55,770 nt of DNA, taken from NCBI RefSeq assembly GCF_000317285.1, contig NZ_AJLN01000109.1, positions 1 through 55,770 on the forward strand. Reading direction: 5' to 3'. The number at the start of each line of letters is the position of its first letter. The first letter of the stretch is position 1. The notes beneath the pieces are model-generated. The model saw nothing but the letters and a program-made list of their open reading frames with translations, was not told where the DNA came from and did not search any database. The DNA is from Chlorogloeopsis fritschii PCC 6912 (GTDB lineage Bacteria; Cyanobacteriota; Cyanobacteriia; Cyanobacteriales; Nostocaceae). A program made the position numbers and the translations under genes. Shown here piece by piece: positions 23,183 through 49,105 of the stretch.

Positions 23183-24373
23183 ATGCGTGACGTGTACATT
23201 GTTTCAGCAGTACGAACACCTCTCGGTCGATTTGGAGGTGTTTTGGCAGATTTTTCACCGACTGATTTAGGTGCCCATGCGATGCGATCTGCTTTAGAAC
23301 GGGCAGGAATTACAGGAGAGGCATTAGACCTGTATATTATGGGCAATGTACTCAGGGCAGGACACGGGCAGTTACTACCCCGGCAAGCAGCTTTCAAGGC
23401 TGGGATTCCGGAGGCGGTAAATGGATACTCTGTTGATATGGTTTGTTCGTCGGGAATGATGAGTGTAATTAATGCTACCCTAGCAATTCGTGCTGGGGAA
23501 GCAGACATCGTTCTAGCTGGGGGAATGGAGTCGATGTCCCAAACAGGCTTTTTCCTCTCTCACAGAGCGAGGTGGGGTTACAAATTTCTCTTAGGTGCGC
23601 CAGAGCAGTTAACGGATTTATTACTCCGGGATGGGTTGATGGATGCAACCAGAGGAGAAGGCATGGGAGAGCAAACGGAGCGGATCGCAGAATATTATGG
23701 ATTTAGCCGCAAAGATTTAGATGAAATCGCTGTTGATTCCCACTGGCGAGCAGCCGCCGCCACGGAGCGAGGCAGTTTCAAAAATGAGATTGCCTCGATT
23801 GAAGTTACTACTAAAAAAGGTACGCAAATAATCGATACTGATGAGGGAATTCGTCCGGATACATCACTGGAAACTCTAACAAAACTACGTCCTGCTTTTA
23901 ACAAGAACGGTGTTTTGACAGCAGGAAATAGCAGCCAGATCAGCGATGGAGCAGCAGCGTTAATTTTAGCCAGCCAAGCAGCAGTGGACAAGTATGGATT
24001 GAAGCCTGTCGCTAAAGTGCTGGGCGGAAGTTGGGAAGGCGGCGAGAGTTGGCGTTTTGTAGAAATGCCAGTTGGGGCAGCTAAGAAGTTGTTGGATAAA
24101 CTCAATCGGAAAGTCTCGGATTTTGACCTATTCGAGAATAACGAAGCTTTCGCGCTTAACTCCTTGCTTTTTCACCGGATGCTAGGAGTACCTATTGATA
24201 AGTTGAATGTTAATGGCGGAGCGATCGCCCTCGGACATCCGATTGGTGCTTCTGGAGCCAGAATTATCGTCACGCTGATTAATGCTTTACAGGAGCGACA
24301 ACAATCCCTCGGCATGGCAGCACTTTGCCACGGTACTGGCGGCGGTACAGCGATCGCAATCGAACAAATCTAA
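23183..24373 (+). CDS. phaA: Acetyl-CoA acetyltransferase (beta-ketothiolase), copy 1
   Basis: Condenses two acetyl-CoA to acetoacetyl-CoA, the first step of PHB synthesis. The 396-residue thiolase has the nucleophile C88 in DMVCSSGM, H352 in [14 protein letters not shown] and C382 in LCHGTGGG, plus the start [13 protein letters not shown]. phaB follows after 22 bp with a strong ribosome-binding site, so the two form an operon. A second, closely similar thiolase is encoded at 39802-40995. Confidence 0.95.
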
Positions 24374-24395
24374 AGGATATAAAGGAGAATTGGTC

Positions 24396-25118
24396 ATGGT
24401 ATCTTTAGGACTAGAAGATAAAGTCATTGTTGTTACAGGCGGCGATCGAGGAATTGGCGCTGCGATTGTAGCCTTACTCCAAGAGTTAGGAGCAAAGGTT
24501 GCTTATACCGACATCAAAATCAGCGAAGGCAAAAGTGGAGCCTTTGCAGTCGAAGCAGACGTAACTAACTTGGCATCTATGGAAGCTGCGGCTGCCAAAA
24601 TAGAAGAGAAATTGGGGCCTGTTTATGGGGTGGTTGCTAATGCTGGGATTACCCGCGATAACTTTTTTACTAAATTGACTCCAGAAGACTGGGATGCAGT
24701 CATTAACGTCAACTTAAAAGGTGTGAATCATACCATTCAACCTTTTATTTCTGGGATGTACGAACGGGGACAAGGTTCGGTTGTCTGCATCAGTTCAATT
24801 TCAGGAGAAAGGGGCAATGTGGGACAAGTAAACTACGCTGCCACCAAAGCTGCTGTCATTGGTCTAGTGAAATCTCTTGCTAGAGAAACTGCCCGTTATA
24901 ATGTACGGGTAAATGCGGTAGCACCAGGATTTATTGATACAGAAATGACTAGGGCAATACCAGATAAAGTTAAAGAAAAAATCACCGCAGAGATTCCTTT
25001 CCGTCGCTTTGGCAAGCCGGAAGAAATTGCTTGGGCGGTAGCATTTCTTCTATCACCCATTGCCAGCAGCTATGTTACCGGTGAAGTGTTGCGAGTCAAT
25101 GGTGCTCATCACACTTAG
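24396..25118 (+). CDS. phaB: Acetoacetyl-CoA reductase, copy 1
   Basis: Reduces acetoacetyl-CoA to (R)-3-hydroxybutyryl-CoA with NADPH. The 240-residue short-chain dehydrogenase has TGGDRGIG (14-21), NAGITRDNFF (82-91, typical for PhaB) and the catalytic Y147-x3-K151. AAAGGAG at 24381-24387 fixes the ATG at 24396; a longer frame overlapping phaA is an artefact. Position 15 of the glycine loop region is D rather than the N of the second copy. The related reductase at 41096-41824 shares almost the whole C-terminal half. Confidence 0.95.
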   Translation: MVSLGLEDKVIVVTGGDRGIGAAIVALLQELGAKVAYTDIKISEGKSGAFAVEADVTNLASMEAAAAKIEEKLGPVYGVVANAGITRDNFFTKLTPEDWDAVINVNLKGVNHTIQPFISGMYERGQGSVVCISSISGERGNVGQVNYAATKAAVIGLVKSLARETARYNVRVNAVAPGFIDTEMTRAIPDKVKEKITAEIPFRRFGKPEEIAWAVAFLLSPIASSYVTGEVLRVNGAHHT

Positions 25119-25324
25119 TATCCTTAACAACCTAGCTTTCAAGATGTGTGTCAGTTGTTCGTTTACTTCTGCCATCCTACACTAGTGCAAAGGCAGGGAA
25201 TCATTTTGAGATTTTCCAGATTCCGTAAAAGTTAGGAATTTAGCTAGTGTATTGTTGGGGGATTATTTTCCCCAATTCCCTTATCAAGAATAGTCTCATC
25301 GAATTTTCAATCAAGGAATCACAA

Positions 25325-26347
25325 ATGCAAAAAGAAACGAATTCCTGGAGTGGAATGGCAGATCAAGTCATGAAAACTTGGACTGAGGTAGGCACTCAGG
25401 CTTGGAAAAGCTGGTTTGACATGATGGCATTAGCAGCTCGCAATCCGATCGCAGATACCAAACCAGGAGTAGAGTCTATTAATCAGCGATTTGCAGAAAA
25501 TCAGGAACTGCTGCTCCGCTTACTCAAATTATCATTTAATACTTGGCAAGATCTCTTTCCCAAAGTTGAATCTGGAGAGGACTGGCAACATTCCCTGAAG
25601 AACTACACAGAGCAACTGCGCGCTCAAGTTGAGGACTTTTCTCAGGGAACTCTCAAAGTCAATCAAAATGCAGCAGAGTTGTGGCAACTCTACCTTAAAG
25701 AGACGCAAAAATTTAGCCAACTTTGGGCGAATGCCCTGGGGGCGACTGTTGATCCGCTAAGTCAGGCAGCAACTACTGGCACCAGTCAACCCTGGATTGA
25801 GCTAAATAACCTCTACTGGAATCTGCTATACGAGCAAAGCTTTGGCAGTTTGATGCAAATTCCCTTGTTGGGGCCTAGTCGTGAAATTAATGGTAAATTA
25901 CTGCGATCGTTTGATGGCTGGACGACACTTTATCGAGCCAGTATTGACTATCAAATTTTACTAGCCGAGATCCAGGCACAATCCTTTGAAGAACTGATGC
26001 GAGAGTTGATCACCCTTGCAGAAAAGGGCGAAAAGGTTAAAGACTGGCGACAATTTCAGGAACTGTGGGGCAGAATTGCCGATGAAGTGTTTGAGAAGGC
26101 ATTTTGTTCCGAAGACAATCTCAAAGTTCGGGGTAGATTCTTAAATGCCCTCAATAACTACAGACTCGATCAGCAAGAGCTTTTGGAGGTGTGGATGAAA
26201 ATGATGAATCTGCCCCTACGCAGCGAAGTGGACGAGGTTCACAAAAGTATCTATGAGTTGCGCAAAGAGGTTAAGAACCTGAAAAAAGCCTTAGCTAAAT
26301 ATGAAGCTCAAGCGCAAACAACTCCGCCAAAAGATGAAGGACAGTAG
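25325..26347 (+). CDS. phaE: Class III PHA synthase subunit PhaE
   Basis: The 340-residue accessory subunit that activates PhaC in class III synthases. N-terminal WSGMADQVMKTWTEVGTQAWKSW is the amphipathic PhaE start; EKAFCSEDNLKVRGRFLNALNNYRLDQQELLEVWMKMMNLPLRSEVDEVHKSIYELR is the conserved C-terminal region, which ends in a coiled coil (about 305-332). AAGGA lies before the ATG at 25325. phaC follows on the same strand, but 341 bp away because a MITE-like element sits between them. Confidence 0.93.
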   Translation: MQKETNSWSGMADQVMKTWTEVGTQAWKSWFDMMALAARNPIADTKPGVESINQRFAENQELLLRLLKLSFNTWQDLFPKVESGEDWQHSLKNYTEQLRAQVEDFSQGTLKVNQNAAELWQLYLKETQKFSQLWANALGATVDPLSQAATTGTSQPWIELNNLYWNLLYEQSFGSLMQIPLLGPSREINGKLLRSFDGWTTLYRASIDYQILLAEIQAQSFEELMRELITLAEKGEKVKDWRQFQELWGRIADEVFEKAFCSEDNLKVRGRFLNALNNYRLDQQELLEVWMKMMNLPLRSEVDEVHKSIYELRKEVKNLKKALAKYEAQAQTTPPKDEGQ

Positions 26348-26688: not shown

Positions 26689-27786
26689 ATGCTGCCATTT
26701 TTGATGCAAATGCGTCTTGATGATGCAACTGAAGAGTATACCGAACTCACCAAAAAGGTAATCAAAGGCATTGAAAATTTGAGTCGCCTGCGAGAAGAAG
26801 ATATTGAAATTGGAGTAACCCCAAAGGAAGTAGTCTATCGCGAGGACAAGTTAGTTCTCTACCACTTTCAACCAATGGTAGAAGAGCGACTGAACATTCC
26901 TGTTCTGATTGTCTATGCCTTAGTGAACCGTCCTTTTATGGTTGATTTACAAGAAGACAGATCGCTTGTTGCGAACTTGCTCAAGTTGGGTTTGGATATT
27001 TATTTAATTGATTGGGGTTATCCTACACGAGCCGATCGCTGGCTCACCCTAGATGACTACATTAACGACTATATCAATAACTGTGTAGATTTCATTAGAA
27101 CAAAGCATAGTCTAGACAAGATTAATCTGCTAGGAATTTGTCAGGGCGGAACATTCAGCCTCTGCTACAGTTCTATCTATCCAGAAAAGGTTAAAAACCT
27201 GATCGTGATGGTTACACCGGTGGATTTTCAAATCCCGGATGCGCTCTTGTATATGCGCGGCGGCTGTACCGTGGGAGCGGAGGCTTTAGATATTGACCTG
27301 ATGGTAAATTCTTTAGGCAATATTCCCGGTGATTTTCTCAATTTCGAGTTTTTGATGTTGAAGCCTCGGCAGTTGGGAATTCAAAAATATCTAGACTTCC
27401 CAGAGATCATGCACAGCGAAGACAAGCTGTTGAACTTTCTACGTATGGAAAAGTGGATCTTTGATAGCCCAGATCAGGCAGGCGAAGCCTACCGACAGTT
27501 CCTCAAGGATTTCTATCAGGCAAATAAACTCATTAAGGGCGAACTGATGATTGGAGACAAGCCAGTCAATCTAAGTAATCTTTCCATGCCCGTACTGAAT
27601 CTATATGCTGAAAAGGATCACTTGGTACCGCCTACATCTTCTATCGCCTTAGAAAGGTATGTTGGTACAAATGATTACACAGTAAGGTCTTTCCCTGTCG
27701 GACATATCGGGATGTATGTCAGCGGTAAAGTGCAGCGAGATTTGCCACCCGCGATCGCCGATTGGTTGAAGGTACGCGCTGATTAA
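26689..27786 (+). CDS. phaC: Class III PHA synthase catalytic subunit PhaC
   Basis: Polymerises (R)-3-hydroxybutyryl-CoA to PHB at the granule surface. The 365-residue size is that of class III enzymes and close to the Synechocystis protein. The lipase-like box GICQGG holds the nucleophile C151; the remaining triad members are D310 in YAEKDHLVPP and H339 in FPVGHIGMY. The segment LVANLLKLGLDIYLIDWGYP is strongly conserved. AAGGAG lies about 15 bp before the ATG. A phased heptamer array follows the gene. Confidence 0.97.
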   Translation: MLPFLMQMRLDDATEEYTELTKKVIKGIENLSRLREEDIEIGVTPKEVVYREDKLVLYHFQPMVEERLNIPVLIVYALVNRPFMVDLQEDRSLVANLLKLGLDIYLIDWGYPTRADRWLTLDDYINDYINNCVDFIRTKHSLDKINLLGICQGGTFSLCYSSIYPEKVKNLIVMVTPVDFQIPDALLYMRGGCTVGAEALDIDLMVNSLGNIPGDFLNFEFLMLKPRQLGIQKYLDFPEIMHSEDKLLNFLRMEKWIFDSPDQAGEAYRQFLKDFYQANKLIKGELMIGDKPVNLSNLSMPVLNLYAEKDHLVPPTSSIALERYVGTNDYTVRSFPVGHIGMYVSGKVQRDLPPAIADWLKVRAD

Positions 27787-28190
27787 GGCAGAGGGAAGAT
27801 GGGGAAGAATTTACTTCCATCACTCCCTCATCTCCTTGTCCCCCCATCCTCTTTCCCCTCATCCTCTTTCCCCCTGTCCCCTGTTCCCTGTCCCCTATCC
27901 CCTGTTCCCTGTCCCCTATCCCCTGTCCCCTATCCCCTGTTCCCTGTCCCCTGTTCCCTGTCCCCTGTTCCCTATCCCCTGTTCCCTGTCCCCTGTTCCC
28001 TGTCCCCTATCCCCTATCCCCTATTTAGGGGTATTTTTTTGTAGGTATTCATCAACCTATCCCTCTGGTGGGAGGTTTGGGAACACAGTAGCAGGTATTT
28101 TGCTAAGAAGGCAGCGAAACCTCTAATTAACGGCTCTCTCGAAGGTAACGCTCGAATGCATGAAAACTTTAATTCGGATTGAGAGTGGAT
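27787..28190. other. Repeat-filled spacer after phaC
   Basis: Holds the heptamer array at 27871-28024 and, after it, 170 bp without recognisable signals apart from the upstream region of the SDR gene. Long open frames across the array are only translations of the repeat. Confidence 0.7.
27871..28024. repeat. Array of 22 phased heptamers (C/T)CCCT(G/A)T
   Basis: Every unit from CCCCTGT at 27871 to CCCCTAT at 28018-28024 is exactly 7 bp with no phase break (22 x 7 = 154 bp). Unit variants differ only at positions 1 and 6. This is the long tandemly repeated heptamer type known from heterocystous cyanobacteria, not a CRISPR array. Confidence 0.9.
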
Positions 28191-32489: not shown

Positions 32490-33554
32490 TTACGTTGGTT
32501 TGCAAACAAGAGCAGGTTTCTCTTCAAGAAGTTCCAAAAATCTATCCGTTTGGTCTTTTCCATGCTCCATTAGTTTTGTAATGAACTCTTGAGAGCGATC
32601 TAGCTTGGATGCATAGTCAATACTGTTAGCAAATTGGTTATCCATGCTAATCCAGCGGATATTAATGATCTTATACAACCCTGCGTATTCGGGATTTAAA
32701 TATCCTTTTTCAATCAATGTGTTGATGGTGTTTACAAACTTGACTTCTTGAAAGAGCGAGAGGTTACCTGTCAATTCATTGCGGCGATCGACAATACCTT
32801 GGGCTGTTGATGGTTCTTCGTCACAGGTTTTTGGATTAATCTGAATAATCCAGATCTCATCAGGTCGCTTTTCAACTCTAGTTTGTTTAACAAAGGCGCT
32901 AATGGGAGGATTCTGCGAAAATAAGCCATCCCAATAAACTCCATCGCCAATTTTGATGGCTTGGAAGATAGTAGGAATGCCCGCAGAAGCCATGATAGCT
33001 TCTACTGTTATTTCTCCTTTGTAGGAGTCGAAGGCTTTGAATTCTCCAGAGAGAACCTCAACTGCCCCTAGTAATAACCGAGGACTTAAAGGGAAAACCA
33101 GTTGCTCAAACTCCTGAAAGTTAATGTGGTTTTCTAGGATCATTCTTAAGTCTAGATATTCCTTGCGAGGAGAAAGCGCTTCCAACCAGCTAATAAACCA
33201 TTGTGTTGAATAAGGATCTGTCGCTACAGCAGGTAGAACGCCCTTGTTTTGTAAGCGAGCTGTCCAAACAGTCAGAAAGTTAAGATACTGTTCCCAGGGA
33301 AGTATGGCAGAATTATCCTCCCAAAAGTTGACTAGCCAATGGTAAGGTTCTTCGGTAGCTCCTTGGGCTTTTTTTAACAAGCCATACCAAACAGCGGTGG
33401 CACAAATTGCTCCACCAGAGGTGCCGCTTAATCCGACAACGTTGTAACGCTCGTGTATGCCTCGTTCGAGCAGTCTTTTGAGAACTCCAGCAGTGAAAGC
33501 AGTATGACTGCCGCCTCCTTGGCAAGCGATCGCTATCTTTTTCCGTTCGTCCAT
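32490..33554 (-). CDS. Patatin-like phospholipase family protein
   Basis: A 354-residue protein with the glycine-rich oxyanion loop CQGGGSHTAFTAGVL (about 10-24), the nucleophile elbow G-T-S-G-G (about 44-48) and the catalytic aspartate in YWDGLFSQNPP. These make a Ser-Asp dyad acyl hydrolase. The start at 33554 leaves 5 bp after the methyltransferase stop; a longer frame would overlap that gene. Third gene of a minus-strand run phasin-like, methyltransferase, patatin. Some patatins act on polyester or lipid at storage granules; that role here is inference. Confidence 0.9.
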   Translation of the reverse strand: MDERKKIAIACQGGGSHTAFTAGVLKRLLERGIHERYNVVGLSGTSGGAICATAVWYGLLKKAQGATEEPYHWLVNFWEDNSAILPWEQYLNFLTVWTARLQNKGVLPAVATDPYSTQWFISWLEALSPRKEYLDLRMILENHINFQEFEQLVFPLSPRLLLGAVEVLSGEFKAFDSYKGEITVEAIMASAGIPTIFQAIKIGDGVYWDGLFSQNPPISAFVKQTRVEKRPDEIWIIQINPKTCDEEPSTAQGIVDRRNELTGNLSLFQEVKFVNTINTLIEKGYLNPEYAGLYKIINIRWISMDNQFANSIDYASKLDRSQEFITKLMEHGKDQTDRFLELLEEKPALVCKPT

Positions 33555-33559
33555 AATAA

Positions 33560-34375
33560 TTAATTCACAGGATTTAATTTTGTCTCTAAAATCAAGCAAA
33601 AATTACGCAGAGGCGATCGCCAAAATATTAGCCACCAGCCGATCCAGGGAACCAAACCCCAGCGTTCTGGATAGCAGTCCAACAAAGGAAAAACCTTCTC
33701 CACAGATAATCCTAATGCTGCTACATCCCGTTCGTCCTCAACAAACCACTTCATTGGTGCTCCCAGACGAGCAGCTTTGTTGGCGTTGAACTGTTTAAAA
33801 ACTATTCCCCCCACATCCAAAGCTAGTTTTGCATTTCCAAACCGCTCTCGCAGGCGCTCAACTAACTGCCTAACCTCTGACTCCTCAAAATAGTAAAACA
33901 ATCCCTCTGCAATAAATAAAATATTCTCATGCTTAATCGTTGGAATTTCATCCATCCAATCTCGATCCAGCACCGAAGCAGCCAAAAATCGATGCTCGCT
34001 TGTTGGGCTATCAACACTCAAGCGAACGTTAATAACTTGTGGTAAGTCTAGCTCAATCCACTGGGTCTTTCCTTCTCCGACGCGATAATAACGCGAAGAC
34101 AAACCCGCTCCCAATTCTACGACTAGGGAGTTGGGATGGACGGCAATGTGCTGTGCGGCAATATTATCCAATAGCTTTGTCCGCACACTAATGCAGACTT
34201 GGTACCTCCAGTCATACCAAGTTTCTAATTCAGCGTCCCACAGCAGAGATTGGAACCAATCCAGTGCTTGAGGATCTCGAAATAGGGCATTTATACGAGC
34301 GTGTTCCTCGGCTCTGGCTCGCAGAGGAATTAGTAATGTACGCGGCACTCCAGTCAGTAGATCGCTGCTTGCCAT
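33560..34375 (-). CDS. LCMT/TcmP-type class I SAM methyltransferase
   Basis: A 271-residue methyltransferase of the leucine-carboxyl-methyltransferase / polyketide O-methyltransferase type: VVELGAGLSSRYYRVG (SAM glycine loop, about 82-97), WIELDLPQVINVR with the acidic ribose contact, and FIAEGLFYYFEESEVRQLV. The ATG at 34375 is preferred; an in-frame start further upstream would put 22 residues inside a palindromic repeat and overlap nothing useful. Its substrate is unknown. Stop and start of the patatin gene are 5 bp apart, so these two are clearly co-transcribed. Confidence 0.87.
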   Translation of the reverse strand: MASSDLLTGVPRTLLIPLRARAEEHARINALFRDPQALDWFQSLLWDAELETWYDWRYQVCISVRTKLLDNIAAQHIAVHPNSLVVELGAGLSSRYYRVGEGKTQWIELDLPQVINVRLSVDSPTSEHRFLAASVLDRDWMDEIPTIKHENILFIAEGLFYYFEESEVRQLVERLRERFGNAKLALDVGGIVFKQFNANKAARLGAPMKWFVEDERDVAALGLSVEKVFPLLDCYPERWGLVPWIGWWLIFWRSPLRNFCLILETKLNPVN

Positions 34376-34434
34376 TTGTTCATTTGTGATTGCAGACTTC
34401 AGAAGCGATCGCTCCTGAAGTCTATTTTTCAAGC
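34375..34434. repeat. 60-bp repeat with HIP1-centred palindrome (copy 2)
   Basis: 34394-34423 is the same 30-bp palindrome as at 30503-30532 with one mismatch in one arm. The copy fills the space between the phasin-like stop (34435) and the methyltransferase start (34375). Both copies are in the same orientation and bracket mscS, patatin and the methyltransferase. Confidence 0.7.
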
Positions 34435-34791
34435 TTACCAACTAGCTGTTGTTGTGCTTGGTGTCTCCTGTGCTGTCTTCTGCGTCATTTGGAAATAGTT
34501 ATCCCAAAATTGCTTCTGGGTTTCCATTGCCAATTGCATTGCCACTTGTTGGGTATTGAGGGCAACATTCACAAACTCTCGTTGAAAATTGAGAGTTTTC
34601 TGGAAAGTATCAGATAGATTTACCTGAATCATTCCAGTGGGAAGGTTGTCAATCCATGTTTCAACAAGCTTTTTCTGCGATTCGCTCAACTGTTTTTGTG
34701 ACTCTTCCCAGACTTCAGCAAGCTTTTTTTGTGACTCACTAAACTGTCTCCGGGAATCTGTAAAAAAATTAGTATTAGTAGTAGTAGTCAT
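34435..34791 (-). CDS. Phasin-like granule protein 1
   Basis: A 118-residue, helix-rich protein without cysteines. After a Thr/Asn-rich start come two copies of an S/E-ESQKKL motif (about 19-24 and 33-41) and a module NLSDTFQKTLNFQREFVN…ETQKQFWDNYF with regular hydrophobic spacing. Small amphipathic helical proteins with F-Q and T-Q-K-Q-F motifs encoded near phaC are typical of phasins, which coat PHB granules. The ATG at 34791 gives MTTTTNTNFF; a longer upstream frame has no phasin character. Close copies of the module occur in the fusion gene at 35474-36934 and, more distantly, at 39328-39600. Confidence 0.8.
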   Translation of the reverse strand: MTTTTNTNFFTDSRRQFSESQKKLAEVWEESQKQLSESQKKLVETWIDNLPTGMIQVNLSDTFQKTLNFQREFVNVALNTQQVAMQLAMETQKQFWDNYFQMTQKTAQETPSTTTASW

Positions 34792-35473
34792 TAGAACTTT
34801 TACCGCTAGATTCCTCACCATGTTTGTTAGGTGAAGAGGAAGTGGGGCGGAGAGAATAACCACTTCCTTTTGAATCGAGGTATATTGTCGTCCCTTATTG
34901 TAATCTGAGGATCGATATTTAATCACACTTTTGTTATCAAAATCTTACCTGACTATTCGACATTTTTCTAAAAATTTTTCTACAAAATGTTAAGTCAACA
35001 ATAGTATCAAATCACTATGATTCACTAGATTCCACTTCACAAATGTCATTAGATTTACCTAAACATTATTAAAAAACCAGTGCCAGCAAAAAACAAATGC
35101 TCTGTTAATTGAATTTGCGGCATAAGTTTCTAAAAAAAAGAATGTATAAATTTCTACTATGAGTTTATGTTTTCTGGATTTGTGATGAATTATTTCCTTA
35201 TTCAAATTAAACAAAATTTAAATTTCTTTTTACCATTAATTAACAGTATTGTATATGTTTATTAATTAGATATTCAGTTTTAATGACTGAAATAATTTCA
35301 TGAGAAATACTAATGAATTATATACAGAAAGACAAATATTCTTATTGATGAATATTCATTTAATTGGTAATGAAAATCAATATAGCCTGACGACGATCCG
35401 ACAGCAAATTATCCTCAGGAGAGAAAACTCCTGAGGTTTTTAGACCTATTAACCAAACTTTTAAATTTGATAT
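34792..35473. other. A+T-rich spacer between phasin-like gene and fusion gene
   Basis: About 680 bp, strongly A+T-rich; carries a hairpin at 35413-35441 and otherwise no recognisable gene, RNA or repeat. The promoter for the phasin-methyltransferase-patatin run must lie near 34800-34950. Confidence 0.6.
35413..35441. terminator. Strong hairpin terminator after the fusion gene
   Basis: CCTCAGGAG-AGAAAA-CTCCTGAGG is a perfect 9-bp stem, with TTTTT on the plus strand. It lies 33-61 bp beyond the stop of the minus-strand fusion gene, so it probably ends that transcript; the better T-run faces the opposite direction, so it may be bidirectional. Confidence 0.6.
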
Positions 35474-36934
35474 CTACCGTGCTGTCTTCTGCATTAATTT
35501 GAAATAGTTATCCCAAAATTGTTTTTGGGTTTCCACTCCTAATTTGCTTGCTACCTCTTGAGCTTTGAAAGTTGTATTCACCAGTTCTCGTTGAAAATTG
35601 AGAGTTTTCTGGAAAGTATCAGATAAATTGACTCGGCTCTTTCCATTAGGAAGGCTATTAACCCAGGTGTAAATCAGCTTTTTTTGTGACTCGCTCAACT
35701 GCTTTTGGAATTCATCCCAGATATCAGTCAGTTTTTTCTGAGATTCTTGGTAAATTTCAGCCTTGAGTGGTTTATAGATGAACTCATGCCAGTATTGACC
35801 TGCCCGCGAATCGAAGTTCTTCTCTGGGCAACGCATAAATAAATGCAAGCACTTAGCAGATTTACCAGGTAATAACTGCCAGGAGAACCGCCTGTCATTC
35901 ACATCATGAGGATAGGTCACTGAGTCCACATGAACATCTGTTGCAAATCCGTATCCAGCATATGGTTCAAAAGAGGAACCCACGGCAAACCAATCAGGTA
36001 CATTAGGATTCTGATAAATTTGCGGCTGCTGGCTCATGTCCATGTAGGCATAGTAGCGAGCTGCAAATTCGAGGTTGATGGCATCTGTGGCAGCATGATT
36101 TCCATCCTGCTCTCCCTTGGGCTTTCCTTTGACGAACAGTTCTTCTATCAAATAGTCTGCATCGGCGTAGAGGCTAATGACACGATACAGTTGGCACGTT
36201 AGATGACGTTCCTTACCCGTATTGGGTTCTAAGTCATTATAATCGAATGGTTCTGAGGCAATGGTAATGCTGGCTCGCATTGGCCCGCTAGAGTGGGAGA
36301 CAAGTCGGTAGGAGCGATCATACAAACTAACCTGGTAGGAAGGCGATTCTGAATAAGGAAGTTCCATCAGCTGAATTTGATCTACCTGCATACAGCGCTT
36401 TTCCGGATCTTGGTTTAGCCATTCACCCATCGCTGCTTGGAACTGATCGAGGATTTCTTGGTGGTCAAGCTGGACGCTGGTGGCTGAACCAGCAAACCAA
36501 TTTCGACCGTCATTCTCTGGTGCAGGGACTAGATTAAACCAGATGATCAATCGGCTGTTCACTAATCTGACTCCACGCTCTTGCCCATCCGCTCCGTAGA
36601 CTACCTCCAGGGATGGCTTGCCCAATTCGTCGTGAGGAATGGGCTTACCACGGTCAACCTTAACAAAAGCTGAGGTAATCGAGTAATCTTCCGAGCCAGA
36701 TGGAATCGCTTCAGCAAGCGAAAACACTAGGGTATCGCGAGATGGATCTTCTGGATCAACCCGGTCAATCTGCGCCAATAAGGGTGTGCTTGCGGGATCG
36801 CTCAAATCGCTTAATACAAGTTCTTCTGGTGGGATCTGGAACTGCTGATATATCGGCTGCCAAGGCATAATGACATGACCGCCTCGCCAGTAATTTGAAG
36901 GGTTGAAAACAGCTAGTAGGTTAGAGGATGGCAT
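35474..36934 (-). CDS. Unknown domain fused to a C-terminal phasin-like module
   Basis: A 486-residue protein. Residues 1 to about 395 form a soluble, mixed beta-rich region that I cannot place in any family (features: FNPSNYWRGGHVIMPWQPIY near the start, RLIIWFNLVPAPENDGRNWF, RHLTCQLYRVISLYADADYL, LHLFMRCPEKNF). Residues 397-486 are a phasin-like module almost parallel to phasin-like protein 1: two ESQKKL motifs, NLSDTFQKTLNFQRE and ETQKQFWDNYF. A 40-bp DNA stretch is identical between the two genes (35586-35625 and 34577-34616), so the module was duplicated recently. GGAG lies 8 bp before the ATG at 36934. The obvious reading is an unknown activity anchored to PHB granules. Confidence 0.88.
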   Translation of the reverse strand: MPSSNLLAVFNPSNYWRGGHVIMPWQPIYQQFQIPPEELVLSDLSDPASTPLLAQIDRVDPEDPSRDTLVFSLAEAIPSGSEDYSITSAFVKVDRGKPIPHDELGKPSLEVVYGADGQERGVRLVNSRLIIWFNLVPAPENDGRNWFAGSATSVQLDHQEILDQFQAAMGEWLNQDPEKRCMQVDQIQLMELPYSESPSYQVSLYDRSYRLVSHSSGPMRASITIASEPFDYNDLEPNTGKERHLTCQLYRVISLYADADYLIEELFVKGKPKGEQDGNHAATDAINLEFAARYYAYMDMSQQPQIYQNPNVPDWFAVGSSFEPYAGYGFATDVHVDSVTYPHDVNDRRFSWQLLPGKSAKCLHLFMRCPEKNFDSRAGQYWHEFIYKPLKAEIYQESQKKLTDIWDEFQKQLSESQKKLIYTWVNSLPNGKSRVNLSDTFQKTLNFQRELVNTTFKAQEVASKLGVETQKQFWDNYFKLMQKTAR

Positions 36935-37125: not shown

Positions 37126-38199
37126 CTAGCCATTACTTAACTTATCAACCATCTTCATGATGGCAGAAGCCTGAATACTATTCTTGAAAGCATATTCGCC
37201 GTTAGTGTAGCCCCACCAGTCCCAGCAACCTTTTGGATTCTTGAGTCTCATTCGGTGAGCTTGAGGATAAAGCACGACTATGTTGTTGCTATCAGCCCAT
37301 TGGTTATAACCAGTGTGAGCATAATATTCGTCACCAATATCCTCATAGGACTGTTCACAGCCATGCAGGGCAATATGCAGCCTGCAAGCCTCACCATTAG
37401 CGCAAGTTTGAGGGATGTAGACATAACCTTTTTGAGCCATGCCATGAGCGCGTGGATTTTGTACAAACTTATCTTGCTTAAACTCAATCAACTGCCCGCT
37501 AAGAGTCTTTGCCGGCGGGTTTAAGTTGCCGAGCAAGTGTCTAAGGATGTTTCCAGCCTGATCATAGTCGCAATCGTTGATAAATGGCGACTGGCTAAGG
37601 CTGCACTGCTTCCCCCAATCGGGAGTAATGAAGCCATGCCCAGCTGGAATATTCTTAATGTATTCGATGTTATGATTCCGAACGCCAAGTGCTTTATAGA
37701 ATTTCTGAGTAGCATCCATCACTGGGGTGTAGACAGTGAAATCCATCGCACCGCTGAAAAGATAGACGCTATCGTCACTTAGGTTAGATACGGGATCGGT
37801 TTTACCTTCATTGGAGAACTTCCGTGCCAAAGTTGCCAGTTCTCTTCCATTCGGCGGCTTGAGAGGGTTAGCGGCGATTGGGATCGGTTTCATGCAGGTG
37901 GTTAGCGCTTTTGTTAGGTTGCCCTGAGCGCAGTAAAATGGCCCGCCAGCAACTACACCAGCCCCTTGGATGCGGTTTGAGAAAGCTGTATGCATCTGTA
38001 CCGCCATAAATGCGCCCGACGATAAACCAGAAACGGTGATATTGTTTCCATCTATGTTGAGCGATCGCAACTCTTGTGCGTTGACAGGTTGCACAAGCAT
38101 TAATGCCCAGCCGAGTGCAGTCGTCAAGATAACTAACACAAGCGCACCCAATATAGCTTTTAGGCGTTGTAGAAAAGAAGTTCCGACTTCATTAAACAT
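37126..38199 (-). CDS. Exported PHB depolymerase-like esterase
   Basis: A 357-residue protein. The N-terminus has basic residues, a hydrophobic core (about 16-36) and a likely signal peptidase site V-N-A/Q-E near residue 41, so it is probably exported to periplasm or outside. The mature part has the lipase box G58-L-S60-S-G62, PFYCAQGN, the His region PAGHGFITPDWG and HIALHGCEQS, which resemble single-domain extracellular or periplasmic PHB depolymerases. No substrate-binding or fibronectin-type domain is present. It would release hydroxybutyrate from PHB outside the cytoplasm, which is odd next to intracellular PHB genes. Confidence 0.85.
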   Translation of the reverse strand: MFNEVGTSFLQRLKAILGALVLVILTTALGWALMLVQPVNAQELRSLNIDGNNITVSGLSSGAFMAVQMHTAFSNRIQGAGVVAGGPFYCAQGNLTKALTTCMKPIPIAANPLKPPNGRELATLARKFSNEGKTDPVSNLSDDSVYLFSGAMDFTVYTPVMDATQKFYKALGVRNHNIEYIKNIPAGHGFITPDWGKQCSLSQSPFINDCDYDQAGNILRHLLGNLNPPAKTLSGQLIEFKQDKFVQNPRAHGMAQKGYVYIPQTCANGEACRLHIALHGCEQSYEDIGDEYYAHTGYNQWADSNNIVVLYPQAHRMRLKNPKGCWDWWGYTNGEYAFKNSIQASAIMKMVDKLSNG

Positions 38200-39327: not shown

Positions 39328-39600
39328 TTAATAGCTGTACCAGTTACGTAAAACGTTGAAATATCCCTGCAAGAATTGCTTCTGGGTATCTATATACATA
39401 CGGCTTAATTGAGCCTGTACTTCCAAAGAATTAGTCAGTAAAGATTCTTGAAAACTCAAAGCTTTGTTGAAATTATCACGATAACTTGACATACTAAAGC
39501 TTTGAGTTCCAGGAAACATAGATGACCAATTTTCAAAAGAAGCCCTTTGGAAATCATTCATTTGTCTCAAGAATTGTTCAGAGGTCGTATACCAATCCAT
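39328..39600 (-). CDS. Phasin-like granule protein 3
   Basis: A 90-residue helical protein. The pattern NFNKALSFQESLLTNSLEVQAQ…DTQKQFLQGYFNVLR aligns with the phasin-like modules of the two upstream genes (F-x-K-x-L-x-F-Q … T-Q-K-Q-F-x3-Y-F). Size and composition fit cyanobacterial phasins of the small Synechocystis type. It faces away from the second phaA gene and shares a 201-bp divergent spacer with it, so shared regulation is possible. Ends with its own terminator. Confidence 0.78.
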   Translation of the reverse strand: MDWYTTSEQFLRQMNDFQRASFENWSSMFPGTQSFSMSSYRDNFNKALSFQESLLTNSLEVQAQLSRMYIDTQKQFLQGYFNVLRNWYSY

Positions 39601-39801: not shown

Positions 39802-40995
39802 ATGGAACAAGCCTATATAATTTCAGCAGTACGCACACCACTTGGTCGCTTCGGAGGAACTCTTGCAAATTTCTCCCCGATAGACTTAGGTGCCAAAGCT
39901 ATGCGTGCCGCCCTAGAAACAGCGGGAGTATCTGGGGAATTGGTAGACTTGTACGTATTTGGCAATGTACTCCGATCTGGTCACGGGCAGTTATTGCCCC
40001 GGCAAGCAGCTTTTAAGGCTGGAATTCCAGAAACAGCAAACGGATATGCAGTAGATATGGTGTGTTCGTCAGGAATGATCGGCGTGATGAATGCAACCTT
40101 AGCAATTCGCTCAGGTGAAGCAGACATCGTACTTGCTGGGGGAATGGAATCCATGTCTCAGGCAGGCTTTTCTCTCTCACATAGAGCTAGGTGGGGCTAT
40201 AAGTTTCTCTTAGGCGCACCAGAACAGTTAACAGATATCTTGCTCCGTGACGGCTTGAGTGATGGAACAACAGGCGAAGGTATGGGAGAGCAAACAGAGC
40301 GGATCGCACAAATTCATGGATTTGCCCGTAAAGATTTGGATGAGATTGCACTCAACTCCCATCAGCGTGCAGCAGCAGCAACCGAGAAAGGAATATTCAA
40401 AAAAGAGATTGTCCCGATTGAAGTAAGTACCAAAAAAGGTACACAAATAATAGATACTGATGAGGGAATTCGTGCAGATACATCACTAGAGGCTTTAGCC
40501 AAACTACGTCCTGCTTTTAACAAGGATGGTGTTCTGACTGCGGGAAATAGCAGTCAGATTAGCGATGGAGCGGCAGCGTTAATTTTAGCTAGCCAATCAG
40601 CAGTAGACAAATATGGATTGAAACCGATCGCCAAAGTGATTGGTAGCAGTTGGCAAGGTGGCGAAACTTGGCGGTTTGTGGAAATACCTGTCTTAGCGGT
40701 GAAAAAGCTACTAGACAAACTTAATCTCAAAATTTCTGATTTTGATTTGTTCGAGAATAACGAGGCTTTCGCGGTGAACTCGTTACTTTTCCATCATCTG
40801 TTGGGAATACCTCTGGAGAGGTTGAATGTTAACGGAGGAGCGATCGCCTTAGGACATCCCATTGGCGCTTCTGGAGCGCGAATTCTTGTGACATTGCTCA
40901 ATGCTTTGGAACAAGAAGATGGGCAACTAGGATTGGCAGCAATCTGTCATGGTACTGGTGGCGGTACTGCGATCGCGATCGAACGGTTGAAGTAA
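39802..40995 (+). CDS. phaA: Acetyl-CoA acetyltransferase, copy 2
   Basis: A 397-residue thiolase with the same catalytic residues as copy 1 (C88 in [37 protein letters not shown]). Protein and DNA are highly similar to 23183-24373 over the whole length, with differences spread evenly, which suggests an older duplication kept under selection. It precedes the second phaB by 100 bp. Why two sets exist is unknown; one may serve thiolysis of acetoacetyl-CoA and the other PHB synthesis, or they are expressed under different conditions. Confidence 0.94.
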   Translation: MEQAYIISAVRTPLGRFGGTLANFSPIDLGAKAMRAALETAGVSGELVDLYVFGNVLRSGHGQLLPRQAAFKAGIPETANGYAVDMVCSSGMIGVMNATLAIRSGEADIVLAGGMESMSQAGFSLSHRARWGYKFLLGAPEQLTDILLRDGLSDGTTGEGMGEQTERIAQIHGFARKDLDEIALNSHQRAAAATEKGIFKKEIVPIEVSTKKGTQIIDTDEGIRADTSLEALAKLRPAFNKDGVLTAGNSSQISDGAAALILASQSAVDKYGLKPIAKVIGSSWQGGETWRFVEIPVLAVKKLLDKLNLKISDFDLFENNEAFAVNSLLFHHLLGIPLERLNVNGGAIALGHPIGASGARILVTLLNALEQEDGQLGLAAICHGTGGGTAIAIERLK

Positions 40996-41095
40996 CAGAG
41001 CAGGCAGAAGTAGGAAATCTTGAAATCTTTCTTCATCTCCTACATATTTACCTGCTCTTGGTTTTGTAATACACATTCTCAATTCACTCTAGCAT

Positions 41096-41824
41096 ATGAA
41101 CTATCTCAGACTTGGACTAGAAGATAAAGTCGTCTTAGTGACTGGCGGCAATCGGGGAATTGGAGCAGCGATCGTCAATCTATTAGAAGAGATGGGATCT
41201 CAAGTAGCTTACACCTATCGTAGCGATCCCAATATTGAGAGTAGTGCCTTAGCAATTCCGGCTGATGTCACCGATCCCGCAGCTATGGTAGAAGTGGTAG
41301 ACAAAGTAGAACAAAAGCTTGGGCCGATTTACGGAGTTGTCGCCAACGCTGGAATAACCAGAGATAACTTTTTTCCCAAATTAGCGATCGATGATTGGGA
41401 CACAGTTATAGAAACTAACTTGAAGGGAATATACAACACGCTCAAGCCCATCGTTCCCAAAATGTACGAGCGACGAGAAGGTTCAGTTGTCTGTATCAGT
41501 TCGATTTCGGGTGAGCGGGGAAACATTGGTCAGGTTAACTACGCAGCATCAAAAGCAGGTGCGATTGGTTTGACTAAATCTCTGGCTTTAGAGGGGGCAC
41601 GTTATGGAGTGCGAGCCAATGCTGTAGCACCCGGATTTATCGAAACTGAAATGACTCAAGCAATCCCAGATAAAGTCAAAGAAAAAATCACCGCAGAGAT
41701 CCCCTTGCGTCGCTTTGGCAAGCCTGAGGAAATTGCTTGGGCAGTAGTATTTTTGCTGTCACCAATAGCTAGTAGCTATGTAAGTGGAACTGTTCTTAAA
41801 GTTAACGGCGCTCATCATACTTAA
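41096..41824 (+). CDS. phaB: Acetoacetyl-CoA reductase, copy 2
   Basis: A 242-residue SDR with TGGNRGIG (16-23), NAGITRDNFF, ISSISGERGNIGQVNYAASK with Y149 and K153, and the conserved C-terminus AIPDKVKEKITAEIPLRRFGKPEEIAWAV. It is the canonical PhaB form (N in the glycine loop). Very like the copy at 24396-25118. Transcribed after the second phaA. Confidence 0.94.
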   Translation: MNYLRLGLEDKVVLVTGGNRGIGAAIVNLLEEMGSQVAYTYRSDPNIESSALAIPADVTDPAAMVEVVDKVEQKLGPIYGVVANAGITRDNFFPKLAIDDWDTVIETNLKGIYNTLKPIVPKMYERREGSVVCISSISGERGNIGQVNYAASKAGAIGLTKSLALEGARYGVRANAVAPGFIETEMTQAIPDKVKEKITAEIPLRRFGKPEEIAWAVVFLLSPIASSYVSGTVLKVNGAHHT

Positions 41825-48820: not shown

Positions 48821-48907
48821 TTCCGGATGCTGAAATCAGCATTGCGGATACATAAATGGTAGATGCACCCTAATTGCTGCCCTCAGTCTTTAGCTGGGGG
48901 TTTTTTC
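48821..48907 (+). ncRNA. Candidate small RNA, tandem copy 2
   Basis: Begins with the perfect hairpin ATGCTGA-AA-TCAGCAT, then GCGGATACATAAATGGTAGATG-CACCC split over the shared core, and ends with a CCCTCAG / CTGGGGG hairpin followed by six T residues. Same order and same strand as copy 1. Tandem arrays of short RNAs are known in heterocystous cyanobacteria (NsiR1 near hetF), but identity with those cannot be claimed. Confidence 0.42.
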
Positions 48908-49105
48908 TATACGTTTTCAAATTACTAAGTAAAAATTTTATCAAACAGAATACCCTCCGGGAAGCCGTACCTACTTCTATCCGCTTCGCGTCTACAGGAG
49001 CCAGGAGTCAGAAGCCACAATAAATTCTTCATTTTAAATTAAGCATTATATTGCTTGTATTCCAGGCTGTAAGCTAAGACTAGCAAGAGTTATTTCACAC
49101 TGAAT

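Follow-up and report, generated by a model that had tools for sequence, protein, structure and literature searches.

The gene at 35474-36934 of the window (the whole 55,770-nucleotide stretch of DNA analysed here) encodes a real two-domain protein of phasin type, and we found no description of it in the papers searched. It stands in a PHB locus and joins a large N-terminal domain, mostly β in the predicted structure, to a C-terminal phasin-type tail. We give about an even chance to the reading in which it is a two-domain member of the PHB gene set, whose phasin tail brings a carbohydrate-linked β domain to the granule or to its assembly site. The earlier note had taken the protein to be previously undescribed. 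Among the papers listed by our searches of the phasin, GH38/mutarotase and HT-58-2 literature, no title or abstract start describes the fusion. Two-domain phasins as such are already known, PhaF being one. The gene, its two parts and the surrounding PHB locus are as follows.

35474..36934, minus strand: fusion gene, 486 aa, stop codon included (ORF list; same fusion in five genomes)
35750..36934, minus strand: N-domain, residues 1-395, predicted β-supersandwich, GH38/galactose-mutarotase-like (AlphaFold2, Foldseek, hhalign)
35477..35749, minus strand: C-terminal phasin-type module, residues 396-486 (66% identity to the neighbouring phasin; AlphaFold2; amphipathicity)
34435..34791, minus strand: phasin 2, donor-type phasin-like gene, 118 aa (ORF list, alignment with the tail, tree)
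39328..39600, minus strand: phasin 1, second phasin-like gene, 90 aa, distantly related to phasin 2 (E 9.3e-5; tree)
37126..38199, minus strand: extracellular-type (catalytic type 2) short-chain-length PHA depolymerase, adjoining the fusion (NF050059, 415 bits, cut-off 280)
33560..34441, minus strand: LCM-type methyltransferase (PF04072, 39.7 bits, cut-off 22.3)
32490..33599, minus strand: patatin-like protein (PF01734, 63 bits, cut-off 27.7)
25247..26347, plus strand: phaE (TIGR01834, 228 bits, over cut-off)
26689..27786, plus strand: phaC, class III (TIGR01836, 535 bits, over cut-off)
39802..40995, plus strand: phaA (NF042967, over cut-off)
23183-24373: other phaA copy (NF042967, over cut-off)
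41096..41824, plus strand: phaB (NF042966, over cut-off)
24282-25118: other phaB copy (NF042966, over cut-off)

The two phaA-phaB sets, at 23183-25118 and 39802-41824, flank the locus. The N-terminus of the depolymerase (37126-38199, minus strand) looks like a signal peptide by eye, which is odd for a cytoplasmic polymer. A third phasin-like gene lies away from the PHB locus in the same genome (L119, contig C87, 7767-8090), and in genome G616 the relative of this gene directly precedes phaA.

The 486-residue reading frame of the fusion is intact and begins with ATG in the ORF list. We placed the end of the N-domain at residue 395, the point where its unfused relatives end, and the remaining ~91 residues repeat the adjacent phasin 2 in diverged form. 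The earlier note had described the last 90 residues as a duplicate of the phasin-like protein at 34435-34791, and the alignment bears this out, with 66% amino acid identity over 92 residues and 76% nucleotide identity. The repeat search likewise found a single ungapped direct repeat of 280 nt, 77% identical, between 34458-34737 and 35467-35746. When phasin 2 was used as the query in a search of its own genome, the fusion tail was retrieved with an E-value of 6.3e-38, and the likeness is therefore not due to chance. The 40-bp stretch said to be identical in both genes was also located: it is the longest identical run, at 34577-34616 in phasin 2 and 35586-35625 in the tail.

In the AlphaFold2 model of the full-length protein (pLDDT 76.9, pTM 0.73), the tail forms two helices, residues 397-427 and 437-485, with modest pLDDT. 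The mean hydrophobic moments of the five tails now known range from 0.36 to 0.40, and for each of them none of 500 shuffled sequences reached as high a value. Neither the fusion nor phasin 1 nor phasin 2 is recognised by a phasin model of Pfam or NCBIfam, and phasin 2 gives only a sub-threshold match to PHA_synth_III_E (E 0.26). Among 20 relatives retrieved from other genomes with the phasin 2 query, 13 have phaA and six have phaC within the ~3 kb that was read, the 13 phaA-adjacent ones being mostly phasin-1-like by eye. Genome G027 has a relative of the phasin 2 type, separated from phaA by 1.6 kb that include a patatin gene, and phaB, phaE and phaC are near; four other loci (in two single-copy genomes, and both copies of G023) have no pha gene in 12 kb. 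In G616, the only patatin-like frame noticed by eye is ~10 kb away. As far as sequence comparison goes, the identification of the tail as a captured phasin-type module is supported.

What does the N-domain resemble? The earlier note knew no family for it, and profile and sequence searches agree: residues 1-395 have no match in Pfam (E<=1) or NCBIfam, and searches of PDB sequences gave noise only, in which we include a Nudix-like match at E 0.06. Pfam searches with 32 family members yielded one hit in one member, at E 0.073. The AlphaFold2 model of the N-domain, built with 32 relatives, is mostly β (pLDDT 78.8, pTM 0.84); the loops 139-150 and 167-174, which lie inside a strongly conserved stretch, are modelled poorly, the second of them over 164-177 when the full-length model is taken into account as well. 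A Foldseek search of the PDB with this model gave 14 matches at E<=0.001, comprising nine α-mannosidase chains, four PL26 chains and one GalM. The mannosidase chains, the best being 5kbp, 3lvt and 2wyi, have E-values from 2.2e-8 to 1e-4; seven are titled GH38, and the two 5kbp chains are titled α-mannosidase only. The PL26 lyase was reached at E 7e-5 and the galactose mutarotase GalM at E 5e-4. TM-scores are 0.35-0.48 overall and 0.39-0.48 for the mannosidases, with rmsd values of 9-12 Å for the latter. Since the Foldseek output carries no aligned ranges, we infer that the match site is the C-terminal region of the GH38 proteins.

This region was also compared by hhalign, with a profile built on the C-terminal halves of 25 GH38 proteins from the same phylum. 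In local mode, residues 7-74 align weakly to the start of the GH38 β region (score 43.2, P 6.3e-5, probability 64%). With a different column rule, the score is 33.1 (P 0.0018, probability 15%), against 28.8 for the best of 300 column shuffles. Among 150 control proteins, 17 of the top 20 are members of the N-domain family itself, so that they do not count as independent controls, with a best score of 30.9, and the best of the other three scores 27.2. The global mode gave nothing against the GH38 profile (P 0.83), and a single GH38 sequence gave P 0.21. Thus the GH38 β region (PF07748 and neighbours) resembles the N-domain in the best Foldseek matches and in a weak profile match over residues 7-74, but the N-domain differs in having no Pfam match and no GH38 catalytic domain anywhere in the fusion (Pfam, E<=1), and the one PF07748 protein found in the genome is encoded by a separate gene. 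By Foldseek, the PL26 exo-rhamnogalacturonan lyase and GalM share the broad fold class predicted for the N-domain, whereas searches of Pfam and of PDB sequences link neither to the N-domain. On these models and profiles, the N-domain is probably a distant relative of the β region of carbohydrate-active enzymes, without the catalytic domain. No transmembrane-like stretch was found in it. The residues invariant across the 32 relatives include W132, E140, E160, D163, D176, K179, C181, R220, R251, E264, H364, W382 and E384, among others.

The fusion is carried by five genomes of three genera, each time within a PHB locus: all three genomes of the own genus, G616 and HT-58-2. All five loci contain phaA, phaB, phaC and phasins; for G586 and G616, all of these names except phaC come from reading the translations. 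Between phasin 1 and the fusion of PCC 7702, the ORF list has no entry of 80 aa or more. A pattern-based scan of all prokaryotes, with one genome per species and with distant relatives able to escape it, returned 29 N-domain loci, all titled cyanobacteria; within this one scan, the N-domain family was found only in cyanobacteria. The phasin tail is present in two of these loci, HT-58-2 and PCC 7702, and the other 27 have short, unrelated C-terminal ends. Further searches added G586 and G616 as tail carriers. Matches were found in five of 291 genomes of the order sample and five of 386 of the phylum sample, with the own genome counted in both and one of the five phylum matches being a weak 29-residue match with a stop; a plasmid search gave no match. 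Another contig of the own genome carries a 64% identical N-domain copy that ends soon after residue 395. An unfused copy is present in four of the five fusion genomes; in PCC 7702, none was found, and the fused one is kept. Both searches proposed by the earlier note, for the N-domain without the phasin module and for the same fusion in other PHB-forming cyanobacteria, thus had positive outcomes, and members of the family do not normally carry the helix bundle (27 of 29 loci lack it).

How did the two parts come together? In a tree of 26 N-domain sequences, rooted only at the midpoint, the five fused sequences group together (100/100), 18 unfused ones make up a separate clade (100/100), and three further unfused rows fall outside both. 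The simplest reading of these sequences is a single origin of the fusion, and the fused gene is, by the same tree, an old paralogue of the unfused family. The phasin-type tree comprises 17 sequences, some of them trimmed N-terminally, with long branches for phasins 1 and 3 and for the tail of L008. In this small tree, the five tails and the five phasin 2 sequences lie on opposite sides of one branch (100/99), and together they are set apart from phasins 1 and 3. Because one branch separates all of the tails from the phasins, the split between tail and phasin 2 is older than the divergence of the carrier species. When the tree is rooted on phasins 1 and 3, the phasin 2 clade nests among the tails with support of 80-90. 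At this modest support, the phasin tree by itself does not tell which copy came from which; the free phasin is taken as the donor because the N-domain has relatives without the tail.

The same branch (100/99) led us to reject the 40-nt run as a sign of recent copying, and to reject gene conversion between the tail and the neighbouring phasin as the main story. The amino acids encoded by the run are also conserved when the phasins of the five genomes are compared as proteins. In the own genome, a brief local conversion may still have taken place.

Both parts of the protein are under purifying selection. The dN/dS ratios are 0.14-0.18 for the N-domain, 0.16-0.33 for the tail and 0.10-0.31 for the free phasin 2 (10 pairs each), and 0.10-0.12 for the unfused copies (three pairs), those from the four PCC 7702 N-domain pairs and from two of the three unfused pairs being rough, with dS above 1. 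By these ratios, the tail changes more quickly than the N-domain and about as quickly as the free phasin 2. With the divergent row L006 left out, 108 positions are invariant in the 28 unfused rows; of these, 84 are the same in each of the three fused rows of the alignment, and the other 24 are not. Because of this retention, the ancestral function of the N-domain has probably been kept.

That function appears to have had little to do with PHB. A PhaC match (E<=1e-10) was found in five of five fused genomes versus six of the 25 in which the unfused form alone was found, one of the six being partial. The other 19 of the 25 gave no PhaC match; 10 of the 25 are titled MAGs, and the 19 comprise eight MAGs and 11 others. 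The unfused loci and the three fused loci examined share no pha clusters, save for short-chain reductases grouped with phaB at one locus. We therefore rejected the N-domain as a PHB-specific family, and its original job looks PHB-independent, since most genomes with the unfused form alone gave no PhaC match and the unfused loci do not share the pha clusters of the fused ones. The neighbourhoods of the unfused copies (29 loci) hold mixed genes that indicate no single pathway. From this distribution, the N-domain looks to have been recruited to the PHB locus along with the phasin module. In 12 of the 29 loci (L009, L010, L012-L016, L018, L020, L022, L028 and L031), the unfused N-domain gene has a divergently oriented neighbour that reads like a pentapeptide-repeat protein.

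We propose the following course of events. A paralogue of a cyanobacterial, apparently soluble β-domain family would have gained, once, a copy of a phasin resembling the product of the neighbouring gene. The helical tail would co-assemble with phasin 2, lie on the PHB surface, or both, and the N-domain would thereby be displayed at the granule or at a granule assembly focus. Less surely, the N-domain may keep its ancestral role, and this role might be the binding or modification of a carbohydrate or glycoconjugate, as known for the fold class in GH38, PL26 and mutarotase. The fusion would then add a carbohydrate-linked function to PHB storage, rather than one in making or breaking PHB. By its sequence, the fusion protein may be a natural granule-attached protein.

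Granule attachment is the doubtful step, because Slr0058 of Synechocystis, a phasin-like protein whose operon also includes a patatin gene, was not observed on granules (excerpted text of PMC7203880). According to the same excerpt, the slr0058-slr0061 operon encodes Slr0058 together with the patatin-like Slr0060; GFP-Slr0058 forms foci during vegetative growth and is absent from granules, the protein forms dimers and trimers, and its loss more than doubles the granule number (PMC7203880). Phasin 2 is likewise near a patatin gene, here also with an LCM-type methyltransferase gene. The tail could, by analogy, be an oligomerisation part that joins phasin 2 in cytoplasmic assemblies setting the granule number, with the polymer left untouched and the N-domain serving as a bulky cap or a regulator rather than an enzyme. 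The continued similarity of the tail and phasin 2 after long divergence fits such an assembly; however, the kinship of phasin 2 and Slr0058 is drawn only from gene content, the amphipathic helices would equally suit granule binding, and we hold this account possible but tentative. A large extra domain, which the fusion has, is not mentioned for Slr0058 in the excerpt (PMC7203880).

The earlier note had read the protein as a natural granule-targeted enzyme or binding protein. In the enzyme version of this, the N-domain could be a granule-tethered catalyst, for example a mutarotase, lyase or esterase type whose substrates are PHB monomers or the sugars that feed PHB synthesis, as the many charged and aromatic residues invariant across the 32 relatives, and the structural matches to the PL26 lyase and GalM, would allow. 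We consider this unlikely. The GxSxG lipase box occurs in none of the 32 N-domains, which argues against a classical serine hydrolase and led us to reject a serine esterase or PHB depolymerase; moreover, the GH38 catalytic domain is absent, and most genomes with the unfused family alone gave no PhaC match. Whole mannosidases are the best structural matches, and the C-terminal β part of α-mannosidases is mainly non-catalytic. Still less is to be said for the tail as a passive leftover of a local duplication, fused by accident and tolerated, on a protein that works elsewhere. Its dN/dS range, higher than that of the N-domain, would agree with this, but in all five genomes, spread over three genera, the tail is open, amphipathic and constrained, with a dN/dS range close to that of the free phasin 2, its gene still neighbours the phasin locus, and PCC 7702, where the unfused copy was not found, retains the fused one. 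We regard a leftover as very improbable.

A more specific form of the carbohydrate-linked reading, which we rate as quite unlikely, is a natural adaptor between two carbon stores, in which the phasin module would sit on the PHB granule and the supersandwich would bind glycogen or another glucan. The idea arises because PHB in Synechocystis is formed mainly from glycogen under nitrogen starvation, as stated in the excerpt of PMC7203880. If true, it would place the sugar reserve that feeds PHB beside the granule.

Among known systems, PhaF of Pseudomonas putida, a phasin with a histone-like DNA-binding domain, is comparable in architecture (review PMC5658603, as excerpted). Like PhaF (PMC5658603), the fusion would combine a phasin part with another domain through which the granule makes a new contact. 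The second part of PhaF is a positively charged, DNA-binding C-terminal moiety, thought to be mostly disordered unless bound (PMC5658603), whereas that of the fusion is a large β domain, folded by prediction and N-terminal; the two are likened by architecture alone. In the excerpted review, phasins are small proteins that coat the granule and have no catalytic role, and the fusion of cargo to them is presented as an engineering tool (PMC5658603). A conserved natural phasin fusion with a large folded domain would mean that evolution has done the same as this engineering. The fusion would also offer a ready two-domain cyanobacterial module, and a handle on granule-surface roles beyond storage.

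Two further elements were seen in the window. At 27871-28022, between phaC and an SDR gene, the heptamer CCCCTGT is repeated about 22 times in an array. About 7 kb past the second phaB, at 48857-48908 on the plus strand, there is a match to the Rfam family NsiR1 (nitrogen stress-induced RNA 1), with 44.7 bits against a gathering score of 39.
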